Source of the DNA: Fidelibacterota bacterium
Lineage (GTDB): Bacteria > Fidelibacterota > Fidelibacteria > Fidelibacterales > Fidelibacteraceae
NCBI GenBank assembly: GCA_030600775.1
Contig: JAUVLI010000002.1
Coordinates: forward strand, 1-38,976
DNA: 38,976 nucleotides
Direction of reading: 5' to 3'
Below, one piece after another: positions 9,524 to 17,858 of the stretch; the stretch's first letter is position 1, and every line of letters starts with the position of its first letter. A program made the translations under genes and the position numbers. The notes under the pieces are model-generated. The model saw only the letters and a program-made list of their open reading frames with translations, was not told the origin of the DNA and searched no databases.

Positions 9524-10348
9524 TTATTCAGTTACTTCTTCTGTTTTCTTGAGATTCAATATTAATAATGTTGCCACCATTGCAACTAATAATATTAGTG
9601 TAGCATAGCCATATTGTTTGTGAGAATATTCTATAAGTTTATTAAATCTTCCTATCAATAGTGAGATACGACCCATAACAGCAAAACCGAATGAAGCTCC
9701 GAAAGAAATCATCAAAAAGTGAATCCCAACTCGTGATATTTTTCCAAATATTCCTTTATGTTCAACTGAGAAGAAAAAGTAAAATAATCCTGTAACAGTT
9801 CCAACGATCAATACGAGGTTATTTATAACAGTACCTAAACTTTCACCCCAAAGTGGTAAAAGGGATCCGTGGATTTGAGCAATAACATTAGAACTCATAA
9901 AACCATAGATTCTAAGTCCAGCCGCCATTCCAACGACATAAGCAAGAGACCATCGACCTAGCCAATTAATACTCGGAATTAAACGAGCCAACATAAAAAG
10001 TCCAAGGAAGAAAGCAATTATATACCATAAATTTTGTTGCTGATCTCCTGGAATTCCATTTTCGGGAAACACATTGTGACTAAACCAATGAAGTCCGTTA
10101 TAGATTTTATACCAAAATTGGTTAAATTTTGATAATGTCGATTGATCGTCCACATATGGCCATAAACGACCAAATAAATTTGGCCATACTTGATTCCAAA
10201 ATGCGATCGTTCCCCAATATGCAGCGGAAACACCAACATAAATATGTTCCGCAACTTTATAAAATGGATTATCTTTATATAAATAACTTAAAATTGCTAA
10301 TGTTAAAAATACAGAAACCCATGCTCCAAATATATTACCGAATGACAT
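9524..10348 (-). CDS. Multi-pass membrane protein of the four-gene cluster
   Basis: 274 residues with about six to seven hydrophobic helices (first at residues 8-23, last at about 245-265) and a short acidic C-terminal tail KKTEEVTE. The loop between the first two membrane regions is rich in aromatic residues (AYWGTIAFWNQVWPNLFGRLWPY). I do not recognise a named family. The start is set by AGGAG about seven bases upstream. It is the last gene of a tight operon (9-bp gap to the preceding gene) and is followed by a terminator. It is probably an integral subunit of a complex with its three neighbours; this is inferred from arrangement only. Confidence 0.8.
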   Translation of the reverse strand: MSFGNIFGAWVSVFLTLAILSYLYKDNPFYKVAEHIYVGVSAAYWGTIAFWNQVWPNLFGRLWPYVDDQSTLSKFNQFWYKIYNGLHWFSHNVFPENGIPGDQQQNLWYIIAFFLGLFMLARLIPSINWLGRWSLAYVVGMAAGLRIYGFMSSNVIAQIHGSLLPLWGESLGTVINNLVLIVGTVTGLFYFFFSVEHKGIFGKISRVGIHFLMISFGASFGFAVMGRISLLIGRFNKLIEYSHKQYGYATLILLVAMVATLLILNLKKTEEVTE

Positions 10349-10357
10349 ATTTATCTC

Positions 10358-11212
10358 CTAATATTTTTTTTCTTTTTTACGTTTGACAAAGTAAGAAATA
10401 TTTCCAATAACAATAAATAATACAATTACGAGGTGAGCAATTGATTGAGCGTCCATTGATTTTCCAGCTTTTCCAATTACAGGATGAATATCGTTATTTA
10501 CAAGTAATTGTTCATATTCTGCTGCACCTGGCATTCCGGCTACAATTCCCTGCAATTGCCCGGATTTAACAAAAGGTAATATTTCATTTACTTGAATAGA
10601 AGTTACACCTGTGCTTGTTTTGATCTTTAAAGGGTCTGATGCATACTGAACCCATTCTTTTGAACCTGGATATCCAGCTGATAAACTAAAAATAAATCCA
10701 ATGTTTTTCAATGATTGAACTCCATCCATTAGTGGTATTTCCTTTATTTTTATTGCTCTGGAATCAACGGTAAAATTTGCAGGGAAACTACGAGTAATAC
10801 CTTTTATTACGGCTTCATTACCTGGACGATAACCAAGATTGCAATAATCAACGCCATATGTGAGATCAAATTCTTCAATTGCTACTTGTTGTAATGCTTG
10901 ACGTGCCATAAATAAACCATCTGGCCATAAACAAGTAATAATTACACGATTTCCTTTGGTAAATAAATGTCGCAAAACTGCTATTGCCATTGGGTGAATT
11001 TCAGGTTTTGTCGATGGACCATAATCAAATGATACAAGTACTTTTTCATTTTTTGGGATATTATCTACTGCATTAAATGCATCAATAGTTAAATTTGTTG
11101 GTTCTACAGGTAGTCCTAAAGGAAATATTAATGGTAGAAAAACGACAATTGCAATGATCAAAAAAATGTATCTTCTGTCTATACTGCCTAAATTTTCTAA
11201 AAATTTACTCAT
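10358..11212 (-). CDS. Bitopic membrane protein with soluble middle domain
   Basis: 284 residues. One membrane segment lies near the N-terminus (about 14-34) and one near the C-terminus (about 257-275, before a KRKKEKK tail), enclosing a soluble domain of about 220 residues. That domain contains KVLVSFDYGPSTKPEIHPMA, VIITCLWPDG and GIVAGMPGAAEYEQLL, and looks like an alternating alpha/beta fold. I cannot name the family and see no classical catalytic motif. It starts one base after the stop of the upstream gene, with its RBS inside that gene, so translation is likely coupled. Confidence 0.8.
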   Translation of the reverse strand: MSKFLENLGSIDRRYIFLIIAIVVFLPLIFPLGLPVEPTNLTIDAFNAVDNIPKNEKVLVSFDYGPSTKPEIHPMAIAVLRHLFTKGNRVIITCLWPDGLFMARQALQQVAIEEFDLTYGVDYCNLGYRPGNEAVIKGITRSFPANFTVDSRAIKIKEIPLMDGVQSLKNIGFIFSLSAGYPGSKEWVQYASDPLKIKTSTGVTSIQVNEILPFVKSGQLQGIVAGMPGAAEYEQLLVNNDIHPVIGKAGKSMDAQSIAHLVIVLFIVIGNISYFVKRKKEKKY

Positions 11213-11213
11213 T

Positions 11214-12119
11214 TTATTTCTCCCCTAAAAATGATTTTTCAATACCCAAAATAACTCGTAACGAAGTTCCTACAATTCCTAATCCGATTCCAATCATAAT
11301 TGCTCGTGCTCCGGCAGCATTTGGATATTGATAAATCCATTCTTGTAATATTTCTAAACGAAGGAAACTGAAAAACGATGTCTTAGGTATCCAATTAGTA
11401 ATAAATACTCCCAATGGAACTCTTCCAATCATAATAATTATTCCAGCTACCAATAAAATTGTTGCTTCCAAATTTCTGACTCTAAAAGCTCTGTAAGATG
11501 CACTGGCAACAAAAAAAGCTAACAATGCAAACATTGTTGCACTTAACGGAGTAAAAACATTTTTGAATATCCAAGCGAAATAAGTATTGTTTTGTTGCAA
11601 ATGTCCACCCCAGCTAACTTCTTTTACTTCAACAACAGCACCAACTGTTTCTAAACGATTTTTAAATCCAATTGCTTTATTTTGAGTATAGTATTGTTTT
11701 TTAATTTTTATACCGTCGCCAGTTTCAGGAATTGCATAAACGTTATTTGCAATTTTATTATCAATTTGTAATTCTTGAGAAAGTTCGTTTACAACAACAG
11801 TTGGATTATTGCCAACATCTTTTAACACAAGAAAATATCCGCCTTTTAGAATAAATCCAAAAGTAAGCGTAAGAAAAAATCCTAAGATAGCAGCCAAACT
11901 ATATTGCCAATTTCTTTTTCTATGAATCAATTTTGAACTTTGTATTTTTAATAGGTTTAATGCACCTAAGATCATTGCAAAACTTGCAATAATATCGAAC
12001 CATTGTGTTGCATGTATTTCAAATGCATCAAATGGACTGTGTGGAATAAACCAAGATGCCAACATCGTAACACCAACAACAAATACTATAGCTAAAGGTA
12101 TATATCTTTTTAAAAACAT
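11214..12119 (-). CDS. Membrane protein with central soluble insert
   Basis: 301 residues. Two or three membrane helices in the first 110 residues are followed by a soluble segment (about 118-180), then three to four more helices. The segment includes NKAIGFKNRLETVGAVVEVK, a helix-strand pattern reminiscent of the ribosomal L7/L12 C-terminal or ClpS-like fold; this is only a resemblance. The C-terminal helix reads ARAIMIGIGLGIVGTSLRV, glycine-rich and likely packed against partners. Family unnamed by me. GGAGATAAC precedes the ATG. Gaps of 8 bp upstream and 1 bp downstream place it in the middle of the operon. Confidence 0.8.
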   Translation of the reverse strand: MFLKRYIPLAIVFVVGVTMLASWFIPHSPFDAFEIHATQWFDIIASFAMILGALNLLKIQSSKLIHRKRNWQYSLAAILGFFLTLTFGFILKGGYFLVLKDVGNNPTVVVNELSQELQIDNKIANNVYAIPETGDGIKIKKQYYTQNKAIGFKNRLETVGAVVEVKEVSWGGHLQQNNTYFAWIFKNVFTPLSATMFALLAFFVASASYRAFRVRNLEATILLVAGIIIMIGRVPLGVFITNWIPKTSFFSFLRLEILQEWIYQYPNAAGARAIMIGIGLGIVGTSLRVILGIEKSFLGEK

Positions 12120-12127
12120 GTTATCTC

Positions 12128-13243
12128 CTATCCAATTTCAAATAATTTTTTAAAGAATTCTGCTCCGAATGACTCAAAAATGACTCCAACAACTATAATG
12201 ATCATTATTGCCGCTTTAACCATATCTTGTCCTTTTATTGAGCCCAATAATTTTGGATCTTGACTTAAATATGCACTTGCGGCAAAAAATTCTTCACCAA
12301 TAAGTGTGTAATCACAAGCGGTAATAAAAAATGGCAGTTGAGCTTGTGAACCGGTTCCGGCAATTTGAATGGCACCAATAGAGTTTCCTGTTTCGGCTAA
12401 GATCAGTGATTCGGCGTAAAATTTACCTTGCATAAATACTGCTGCCGGTTTCTCTCTTAACATAATTCCATTTACTCCAGCAGCATATGCAAATTGATCA
12501 TCTGTCAAATAGTGAACCATATCGGAATTAAATTGGTCAGGTCGCCCTTCACTCATATACGATTCTCTAACGATTTCTCTTCCTGCTTCCATAACAATAG
12601 AACGAGCTACCGGAACATTTAAATCTGTTTCATATCTCGCTGTCATTTTAGATACATGACCAAGAATAATTATTCCGGAAATTGTTTCTACTTGATCAAG
12701 ATCCATAATTCCGGGAATAAATAGAACGGATTTCCCCATTTCTGTTGCTCTTCCAACTGCTTCTTCAAAGGCTTTCAGACCGGCAATTGGACGCAAATAA
12801 ATTTCTTTTTTCTTTTTTGCTTTCTCAATATAAAATAAAATTAGAATAGATGTAACTAATAAAAATATAAATCTTGCAAGTCGAGATGTATTAAACCATT
12901 GTGCTTTTGTTATAAATGGCTCTGAAATTGCTTCTGCAATAACCTTCTCATTATCATCATAAGTTGTAACTTTTAATGAAGTTAAAATATCATTTTTAAT
13001 ATAAATTTTTGATGATAATTTGTCAATGCTCTTTAATTCTATCCATTGTAATTCATCACCTAATTTTTTAAATACTTTAAAATTAGTCGTATTATCAATC
13101 CCAGTAATGAGCATATTTACAAGTTGTCCCTCAGCTTCTGATTTATCTACTTCTACATTAATATTTATTTCGCTCCCAATGGCAAAATTAAATATCAACA
13201 TAAAAAGCAAAAATATTTTCAGCCATATTCCTCTATTTTTCAT
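12128..13243 (-). CDS. DUF6754-like membrane protein
   Basis: 371 residues from ATG 13243, chosen because GGAGGAC (13247-13253) sits directly before it; the frame opens upstream at TTG 13255. A signal segment (about 1-23) is followed by an Ig/FN3-like extracytoplasmic domain (to about 115), a membrane helix (ARFIFLLVTSILILFYI), and a conserved cytoplasmic domain. That domain has GKSVLFIPGIMDLDQV, GAIQIAGTGSQAQLPFFI, and ACDYTLIGEEFFAASAYLS. A last helix near the C-terminus (IMIIIVVGVIFESFGA) ends it. The conserved part matches my memory of DUF6754, which has no known function. It is the first gene of the four-gene cluster; an AT-rich 94-bp gap separates it from the small genes upstream. Confidence 0.75.
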   Translation of the reverse strand: MKNRGIWLKIFLLFMLIFNFAIGSEININVEVDKSEAEGQLVNMLITGIDNTTNFKVFKKLGDELQWIELKSIDKLSSKIYIKNDILTSLKVTTYDDNEKVIAEAISEPFITKAQWFNTSRLARFIFLLVTSILILFYIEKAKKKKEIYLRPIAGLKAFEEAVGRATEMGKSVLFIPGIMDLDQVETISGIIILGHVSKMTARYETDLNVPVARSIVMEAGREIVRESYMSEGRPDQFNSDMVHYLTDDQFAYAAGVNGIMLREKPAAVFMQGKFYAESLILAETGNSIGAIQIAGTGSQAQLPFFITACDYTLIGEEFFAASAYLSQDPKLLGSIKGQDMVKAAIMIIIVVGVIFESFGAEFFKKLFEIG

Positions 13244-13337
13244 TTTGTCCTCCAATTAAGTAGTCAAGTATACAAATTATTTTATTGTTATCTAATAAAA
13301 AAATTAAAAAAATAATATTTGGATTTTTCGTTTGAAA

Positions 13338-15910: not shown

Positions 15911-16708
15911 ATGAAGAATTATTTGAAATTTTTGTTTGTTTTATCATTAGTGTTTTCTTTTTCGTTTTTATTTGCGCAAGAAGAAATCAGTGGTGATGAA
16001 GAGTTTCAACAATTATTCGAAGAAGGAAATGTTGATACTGAAGCTGTTGAAGAAGAGAGTGGTTTTCTCGATAAGGTTACTGACATTGCTGAGGAAGAAG
16101 AAGCTGCTGCTGAGGAAGGTGAAGAAGAAGCAATTGTAGAAGAAGTTGCTGATGTAGATACTTGGGGTGTAAAAGCTTATGTAAATGTTGGAGCAGTTGA
16201 ACCTTGGGGTGATCCAGGAACTGGTGCATTATGTGATGTGGGCTTCCATTTTGGTGGTGGAGCTATTGTAAAACTTTCTAATTTTGTAGATTTACCAGCA
16301 GTATTAGATCCGTTAAATGTAGAAGGTGTAGTAAGCTATACAAGCTTTGCACAAAAAGACGATGGCGATGGAACCGCTACAGTTATAGGTGTTGGAATAA
16401 CACCTCGCTATGATGTAAGTGATTTGGTTTTTGATGCACTTGGTGTTGAGCCAGTTGTTGGTGTTTTCGGATTGTTAGGATTGCGTTACAACTATCATTC
16501 ATGGGATAGCTTCCCCGTATTAGAAGACGAGAGTGCTTCATCTTTCGGTCTTGATATTGGAGCAGGAGTTAAATATAATATTAATGAATCTGCGGGATTG
16601 GACTTTAGATTTACACAAGGTCTATATGGTATGACAGAGATTGATTATGGCGACTATTCTCATTCAGAAAATGGATTTCTTTTAGGTGTCACTTTTAAGA
16701 TACAATAA
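15911..16708 (+). CDS. Outer-membrane beta-barrel protein with acidic N-terminal segment
   Basis: 265 residues from ATG 15911, with a strong AGGAGG a few bases before. The signal peptide ends in FLFAQ. A very acidic stretch (about residues 24-78, many E and D with Ala) follows, then a barrel-like domain with alternating strands (WGVKAYVNVGAVEPWG, VGVFGLLGLRYNYHSW, SSFGLDIGAGVKYNINES) and the C-terminal strand GFLLGVTFKIQ typical of outer-membrane proteins. Its own promoter-like boxes and a strong terminator make it a single-gene unit, and the strong RBS suggests high expression. The acidic segment could bind cations or contact peptidoglycan-side partners; that is speculation. Function unknown. 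Confidence 0.75.
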   Translation: MKNYLKFLFVLSLVFSFSFLFAQEEISGDEEFQQLFEEGNVDTEAVEEESGFLDKVTDIAEEEEAAAEEGEEEAIVEEVADVDTWGVKAYVNVGAVEPWGDPGTGALCDVGFHFGGGAIVKLSNFVDLPAVLDPLNVEGVVSYTSFAQKDDGDGTATVIGVGITPRYDVSDLVFDALGVEPVVGVFGLLGLRYNYHSWDSFPVLEDESASSFGLDIGAGVKYNINESAGLDFRFTQGLYGMTEIDYGDYSHSENGFLLGVTFKIQ

Positions 16709-16730
16709 TTATTAAATCTAAATAATAAAA

Positions 16731-16763
16731 AAAAGCTCTCAAATAAATTGAGAGCTTTTTTTA
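16731..16763. terminator. Strong bidirectional terminator
   Basis: AAAAGCTCTCAA (16731-16742), loop ATAAA, and TTGAGAGCTTTT (16748-16759) form a perfect 12-bp stem followed by T residues. It lies between the convergent outer-membrane protein gene and the hemC-like gene and serves both strands. Confidence 0.92.
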
Positions 16764-16781: not shown

Positions 16782-17699
16782 TTATTTAGGTAATATTTTT
16801 TTAATTTTATCGTTTTTTAGGAAAGTATTTGCTAATTTGTCACCAATAGATTTGCTATTATCCCTAAATGTTTTTGTAATATTTTCTTTGATGAAGATGT
16901 CGCCTTCATTATTAGATAAAAATGCAGTTATGGAAAGTTCTTTATCATTCATTTCTGCATAGACACCAACGGGATAATTATTACTGATATTTAATTTTGA
17001 AATGAATGCTCTTTCCGCAGTAACTGTGTTATATGTCTCTTTGTCTAATATTGGTTGAAGTAATTCAATTATATCAAATCTATGGCTTGGAATTATTAAT
17101 GCTGTAGCACCTTGTCCGGCTGCAGGAATGAATTTGTGTTTATCTAAATCTGCTGCAGGTGCTTTTGAAATATTTAAACGCTCAACTATTATTTTATCAA
17201 GAATAATTCCATTAAGTTTAAAATTTTTTAACTTAAAAATACAGGATTTCACATCACCATTTAAAATAACTAATTTTGTATTTGGATAATATTTTTTCAT
17301 TAATGCAAAATTTCTTAAATTGCTAACTCCAACAACAAACTTTGGCAAGTCATCATCTATTTTAAAATCATTAAATGTTACGAAGGTATCTTCTGAATAA
17401 TCCCTTTTAATGTATCCGGCAATAATCAAACCCGGATCAATTGAACATGATAAATATTTGACGTTGTGCACAGATATCTGAATATCATTATTTAACAATT
17501 GTTCTTCTATTTCTAAACTATAAGGAGTATCTATAATTTCATCATTGATTTGAAAATCATTATTTATTTGGTGATTTGTCCTAATAATTTTGATATGAAC
17601 ATTTAATTGAGGGTATTGCAATTTTAGCAATTCTTTTATATGATTCGTTTGCCAAATAGCTAATTTGTCTTCATTAGTTGCAATTGTAATGCTTTTCAT
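16782..17699 (-). CDS. HemC-like protein lacking catalytic and cofactor residues
   Basis: 305 residues, about the length of hydroxymethylbilane synthase (HemC), and alignable by eye along its whole length: TIATNEDKLAIWQ at the start, IQISVHNVKYLS, GVSNLRN, KFIPAAGQGATALI, TAERAFISKL, YPVGVYAE. However, the residues that make HemC work are gone. The catalytic Asp of VHSxKDVP is Tyr82. The cofactor-carrying Cys before VPIG is Asn240. The Arg of the ATR motif is Asn9, one of the RR pair is Asn130, and both Arg of LRGNVGTR are Asn147 and Cys153. It cannot carry the dipyrromethane cofactor. The frame is intact with AGGAG before ATG, so it may be a repurposed binding protein. No other heme genes are near. 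Confidence 0.7.
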   Translation of the reverse strand: MKSITIATNEDKLAIWQTNHIKELLKLQYPQLNVHIKIIRTNHQINNDFQINDEIIDTPYSLEIEEQLLNNDIQISVHNVKYLSCSIDPGLIIAGYIKRDYSEDTFVTFNDFKIDDDLPKFVVGVSNLRNFALMKKYYPNTKLVILNGDVKSCIFKLKNFKLNGIILDKIIVERLNISKAPAADLDKHKFIPAAGQGATALIIPSHRFDIIELLQPILDKETYNTVTAERAFISKLNISNNYPVGVYAEMNDKELSITAFLSNNEGDIFIKENITKTFRDNSKSIGDKLANTFLKNDKIKKILPK

Positions 17700-17825: not shown

Positions 17826-17858
17826 TAAAAAAGGAAGTATTTTCTACTTCCTTTTTTA
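17826..17858. terminator. Terminator downstream of dnaK
   Basis: AAAAAAGGAAGTA and TACTTCCTTTTTT form a perfect stem around a TTTTC loop, about 20 bases past the dnaK stop codon on the minus strand. The flanking A and T runs make it usable in both directions. Confidence 0.88.

Follow-up and report, generated by a model that had tools for sequence, protein, structure and literature searches.

Here we analysed a 38,976-nucleotide stretch of a Fidelibacterota genome (the window), which carries a gene for a protein descended from hydroxymethylbilane synthase (HMBS, HemC). In all probability this HemC-like protein is an HMBS-derived pseudoenzyme that was retained after the loss of its pathway, rather than a functional HemC or a pseudogene in decay. 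Since the catalytic and cofactor-holding residues are gone from an intact gene under selection, its job is almost certainly different from that of HMBS. Pseudoenzymes in general have lost their catalytic residues and retain their fold under selection. The same pattern is found here, with an intact gene, dN/dS well below 1, and catalytic residues lost across the clade. Throughout, the family refers to Fidelibacteraceae (Marinimicrobia/Fidelibacterota), g1 is the genus of the window, g3 is its sister genus, and g2 is a third genus.

The open reading frame begins with ATG, contains no internal stops, and lies on the minus strand (Table 1). As the first-pass annotation had claimed, it is a full-length, intact frame that aligns with HemC, and Pfam profiles match residues 4–205 (Porphobil_deam, 2e-30) and residues 225–294 (Porphobil_deamC, 1e-11). 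The N-terminus, MKSITIATNEDKLAIWQ, aligns with the N-terminus of cytosolic HemC. TIGR00212, the NCBI hemC equivalog model, scores 178.9 bits with a cut-off of 164. With both HMBS domains at full length and an HMBS fold in its predicted model, the protein belongs to HMBS by descent.

Table 1 Features at and around the hemC-like gene, in window coordinates.
Feature	Coordinates	Strand	Basis or remark
hemC-like gene, probable pseudoenzyme, 305 aa	16782..17699, stop codon included	minus	ORF 17699-16782, Pfam, TIGR00212, orthologues
HMBS domains 1 and 2 (PF01379), coding region	17085..17690	minus	Dipyrromethane pocket in active enzymes; changes D84Y, R11N, R132N, R149N, R155C, S81N, S129N
HMBS domain 3 (PF03900), coding region, residues 225-294	16818..17027	minus	Asn240 replaces cofactor Cys242
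Tyr82 codon, site of catalytic Asp84	17454..17456	minus	Alignment with E. coli HemC
Asn240 codon, site of cofactor Cys242	16980..16982	minus	Alignment with E. coli HemC
Intrinsic terminator, 15-bp stem, between the convergent hemC-like (minus) and beta-barrel (plus) genes	16728..16762	listed on minus	Near-symmetric A/T tails
Hairpin GGAAGTA-TTTTC-TACTTCC followed by a T run, between dnaK and the hemC-like gene	17833..17851		By eye; unlisted in the terminator scan
Secreted outer-membrane beta-barrel protein, convergent neighbour	15911..16708	plus	PF13505, 1e-9
MmgE/PrpD-family gene remnant, 91 aa	15450..15725	plus	N-terminus joined to C-terminal piece, large internal deletion

We aligned the window protein against E. 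coli HemC, whose residue numbering is used for the sites. The protein differs from HMBS at the catalytic Asp84 (Tyr82 in the window protein), at Cys242 that anchors the dipyrromethane cofactor (Asn240), and at R11 (Asn9), R132 (Asn130), R149 (Asn147), and R155 (Cys153). All of these residue calls by the first-pass annotation are right. Further substitutions are K55D, K59D, S13D, S81N, S129N, N151D, and A170D, so that four of the seven active-site Arg (11, 131, 132, 149, 155, 176, and 232) are missing along with Lys 55 and 59. Retained residues are H80, K83, R101, R131, R176, Q198-G199, and R232. Among E. coli HMBS mutants, D84N has no activity, R131L and R132L lose cofactor binding, R11H, R149H, and R155H are detrimental, and K55Q and K59Q affect activity (PMC3945110). 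Based on these published mutants, HMBS activity of the window protein is implausible, and it very likely does not synthesize hydroxymethylbilane.

The same two losses occur in all nine copies from the family. At the Asp84 site, seven have Asn, one has His, and the window protein has Tyr; at the Cys242 site, five have Asp, three have Asn, and one has Pro. Outside the family, 51 alignment rows are readable at position 242 and every one of them has Cys, and the other HemCs of the phylum in which both sites are covered and read (approximately 46) all retain Asp84 and Cys242. Five derived residues, N81, N129, F157, K28, and K181, are invariant in the nine copies. We also considered whether the Asp or Cys had merely shifted. 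The only cysteines in the window protein are residues 85 and 153, the two nearest orthologues have none, and no Cys is conserved among the nine copies, so a displaced residue was rejected. A Cys at E. coli position 227 in g3 was likewise rejected as a substitute, as the active HemCs L011 and L013 have it too.

Each family genome with the gene contains a single intact copy (three of three in g1, six of six in g3), and none was found in the 10 genomes of g2, so members of the family can do without its role. The window protein is 83 and 72% identical to the copies of its own genus and 35–38% identical to those of g3. Every copy is one frame with no internal stops, rather than the fragmented gene expected of a plain pseudogene. 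An assembly or frameshift artefact was rejected because nine genomes agree, one of them a single contig. In a tree of 26 proteins, the nine copies are monophyletic (100/99) on a long stem inside a Marinimicrobia group (95/89), which is consistent with vertical descent, although the long branches call for caution. Since the loss of Asp84 and Cys242 and the derived Asn81 and Asn129 are common to g1 and g3, the loss most simply predates the split of the two genera. One contig scan with the family profile, reliant on two peptide patterns, found no members outside the family.

The Arg-to-Asn and Cys-to-Asn changes are consistent with a genomic GC content of 30%, but AT-driven drift alone was rejected, as g3 members at 45% GC also have N81 and N129 and also lack the Cys and Asp. 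A contig of 25% GC (L041) retains a normal HemC. HemC matches were found in 59 of the 245 genomes of the phylum. The other 186 Marinimicrobia genomes, many of them incomplete, have no match, and loss of tetrapyrrole synthesis seems to be common across the phylum. Low-scoring HemCs elsewhere in the phylum (130–170 bits, frames of approximately 510 amino acids) were rejected as further dead copies because their catalytic residues are present. L098–L110 (genomes of families f10, f12, and f22) have HemC frames of approximately 500–540 amino acids with low Porphobil_deam scores and catalytic residues wherever readable; these are perhaps HemC-HemD fusions.

The rest of the pathway is undetectable in the family. 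HemA and HemB were each found in 0 of 16 family genomes and HemD in 0 of 12, with three, four, and four outgroup genomes positive, respectively. For HemE, 10 family genomes fall under the equivalog cut-off of 303, the best at 105 bits vs 385–429 bits in outgroups, and the CobA matches of 10 family genomes are all below 25 bits. The window genome (1.87 Mb) is 92% complete, so the absences are judged from the family taken together and chiefly from G008 of g3, a one-contig genome of 2,788,509 bases (45.0% GC in the stretch read) in which none of the five is detectable either. There is thus no HemB to make the substrate of HMBS and no HemD to use its product, and no second, canonical HemC was found in the family genomes. 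Unlike outgroup hemC, which sits within a hemA-hemC-hemD-hemE operon, the window gene is solitary. Family matches to the URO-D superfamily were rejected as HemE, being under the hemE cut-off and resembling a second URO-D paralogue of outgroup G032. Proteins of this kind, for example G000:C57:11751-12593 and G008:C1:1010699-1012431, form adjacent pairs in several g3 genomes and are possibly corrinoid methyltransferases.

Despite these losses, the gene is under ordinary purifying selection, like its neighbours. Pairwise dN/dS across relatives is 0.14–0.22 in g1 (bootstrap upper bound 0.32) and 0.04–0.08 in g3 (upper bound 0.13). Neighbouring genes in the comparison of the window with genome G002 have values of 0.06–0.33, and the broken MmgE/PrpD gene has 0.72. 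Together with the lost residues and the missing pathway, the low dN/dS supports the earlier proposal that selection has kept the fold after HMBS chemistry was gone.

We next asked which part of the protein is conserved, defining the pocket as the 31 positions that touch the cofactor or growing chain (the residue table of PMC3945110 plus Cys242). In active HemCs the pocket is approximately 2.3 times better conserved than the rest, and the four nearest outgroup HemCs are invariant at 28 of 31 pocket positions vs 84 of 262 others. When g1 is compared with g3, conservation of the pocket does not exceed that of the remaining positions (0.35 vs 0.34). Within genera the samples are small, with three sequences in g1 and six in g3. 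In g3, 25 of 31 pocket positions are invariant vs 149 of 262 others (p=0.01), and pocket dN is 0–0.46 of the rest; this conserved, altered pocket makes ligand binding at the old site plausible for g3. In g1, the corresponding counts are 17 of 31 vs 177 of 262 (p=0.16), and pocket dN is 0.84–1.6 times the rest. Since the g1 pocket drifts as fast as the remainder, the selected part in g1 is the fold or a surface, and selection there is unlikely to act on binding of a ligand at the old site. The ligand-binding or regulatory role suggested by the first-pass annotation thus stays a suggestion: the altered pocket is conserved in g3 alone, and the g1 data argue against a conserved ligand at that site. 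Any single binding mechanism for the whole family is weakened as well. Position 157 is Phe in all nine copies (Phe155 in the window protein), whereas readable HemCs from outside the family all have a polar residue there. It could be a new contact surface, its exposure being judged from the polarity in other HemCs rather than from coordinates.

AlphaFold models based on an 11-row alignment have the HemC fold, with pLDDT of 86.0 for the window protein and 90.4 for a g3 protein. In Foldseek, the best 32 PDB matches are all HMBS (TM to query 0.81–0.88), followed by type II binding-protein folds (E approximately 1e-8 to 1e-9). The likeness to HMBS, or porphobilinogen deaminase (PF01379 and PF03900; TIGR00212; PDB 1ypn, 1pda, and 4mlv), is a full-length homology over three domains, and it includes the PAAGQGA and TAERAF motifs. 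The model has low confidence at residues 43–59, where the active-site loop of HMBS lies; the E. coli structure 2YPN is missing loop 42–60 (PMC3945110). The type II periplasmic-binding-protein-like folds, such as the LysR-type effector domains of OxyR and Cbl and amino-acid binding proteins, share the two-domain clamshell and provide an example of its use for binding instead of catalysis. However, their TM is low (0.33–0.44), HMBS matches far better, and the window protein has no obvious signal peptide or DNA-binding domain.

In g1, the hemC-like gene has dnaK on one side and a convergent beta-barrel gene on the other, and in g3 it is near an MmgE/PrpD gene. The hairpin on the dnaK side (Table 1) is probably the dnaK terminator, so the hemC-like gene is probably its own transcription unit. 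No conserved operon partner was found in the family, and no genes for transport, heme, or cobamides are visibly linked to it. Homology between the secreted neighbours of g1 and g3 was rejected, as it is marginal and mostly signal peptide, which leaves MmgE/PrpD as the sole shared linkage. This gene is broken in the window, intact in G002 (L045:3242-4633, 463 aa) and near the g3 copies, and was not found at the corresponding place in G001. Elsewhere in the window, four genes at 9524-13255 on the minus strand, a DUF6754 protein and three with no Pfam match over the cut-off, keep their order in G001.

Several other explanations could account for parts of these data. A hemC that is decaying after pathway loss and has stayed unbroken by chance would fit the missing pathway, the drifting g1 pocket, and the loss of the gene from g2. 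This is very unlikely given the dN/dS of 0.04–0.22 with narrow intervals, and given that nine copies remain intact, with fold residues kept, across genera that are only 35–38% identical. The nearby MmgE/PrpD gene illustrates what decay looks like in the window. At the other extreme, the score above the hemC equivalog cut-off could signify that hydroxymethylbilane is still made by an unusual route, but with no Cys242 or Asp84, no HemB for substrate, and no HemD for product, we give this virtually no credence.

Two further alternatives retain a function for the pocket. The clamshell may bind porphobilinogen or a tetrapyrrole in a non-catalytic way, for example as a salvage or sensor protein in cells unable to make such compounds. 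R132, R155, and R176, which remain in g3, touch the cofactor and polypyrrole chain in simulations (PMC3945110). Against this, every g1 copy is missing R11, R132, and R149, every g3 copy is missing R131 and R149, and the gene shows none of the linkages noted above; on balance this role is unlikely. That the altered pocket now catalyses another reaction is more doubtful still. It would agree with the conservation of the g3 pocket above background, which keeps H80, Q19, Q198, and five Arg and has new invariant Asn81, Asp13, and Glu170. However, g1 varies at the D84 site (Tyr, His, or Asn) and the R155 site (Cys, Arg, or Gln), hence there is no family-wide catalytic set.

We therefore favor a pseudoenzyme that would act as a soluble, cytosolic two-domain clamshell, by binding and not catalysis. 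In this scenario, the ancestor of the Fidelibacteraceae would have lost tetrapyrrole biosynthesis (hemA, hemB, hemD, and hemE) and retained its vertically inherited hemC. The cofactor Cys, the catalytic Asp, and several of the substrate Arg would have disappeared from that gene either before this step or after it, with selection for a non-HMBS role keeping the gene in place. In g3, the Fidelibacter lineage, the protein would most likely clamp a small ligand, anionic and perhaps carboxylated, through R11, R132, R155, R176, and R232, a tentative assignment that falls somewhat short of probable. In g1, the pocket constraint would be gone and the scaffold selected, probably for a surface in contact with other proteins, to which the helix bearing the invariant Phe157 would belong; this is a guess, which we regard as possible. 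A fuller version is doubtful as a whole, namely that these proteins are a new class of non-enzymatic HemC derivative, in which the Fidelibacter-lineage clamshell holds a new anionic metabolite where the cofactor once sat and signals to a partner by way of a new hydrophobic patch, the cells themselves lacking tetrapyrrole synthesis and relying on their neighbours for peptidoglycan.

Few metabolic enzymes are as highly conserved as HemC. In the literature searched, which left most subscription journals outside, we found no report of a HemC-derived pseudoenzyme or of a clade that retains a dead HemC after pathway loss. Five of five further family members tested also score above the TIGR00212 cut-off (165.8–209.5 bits), so public annotation probably calls them HemC. 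Automatic annotation of this kind credits these genomes with an enzyme step that they almost certainly lack, which spoils predictions of auxotrophy. The lineages of the Fidelibacteraceae are 46-47, with the cultured strain IA91, M50B103, and TCS52 (PMC11652737). The HemC-like protein would represent a catalytic scaffold that has been reused, and with a cultured member in the family, its role is open to experiment.
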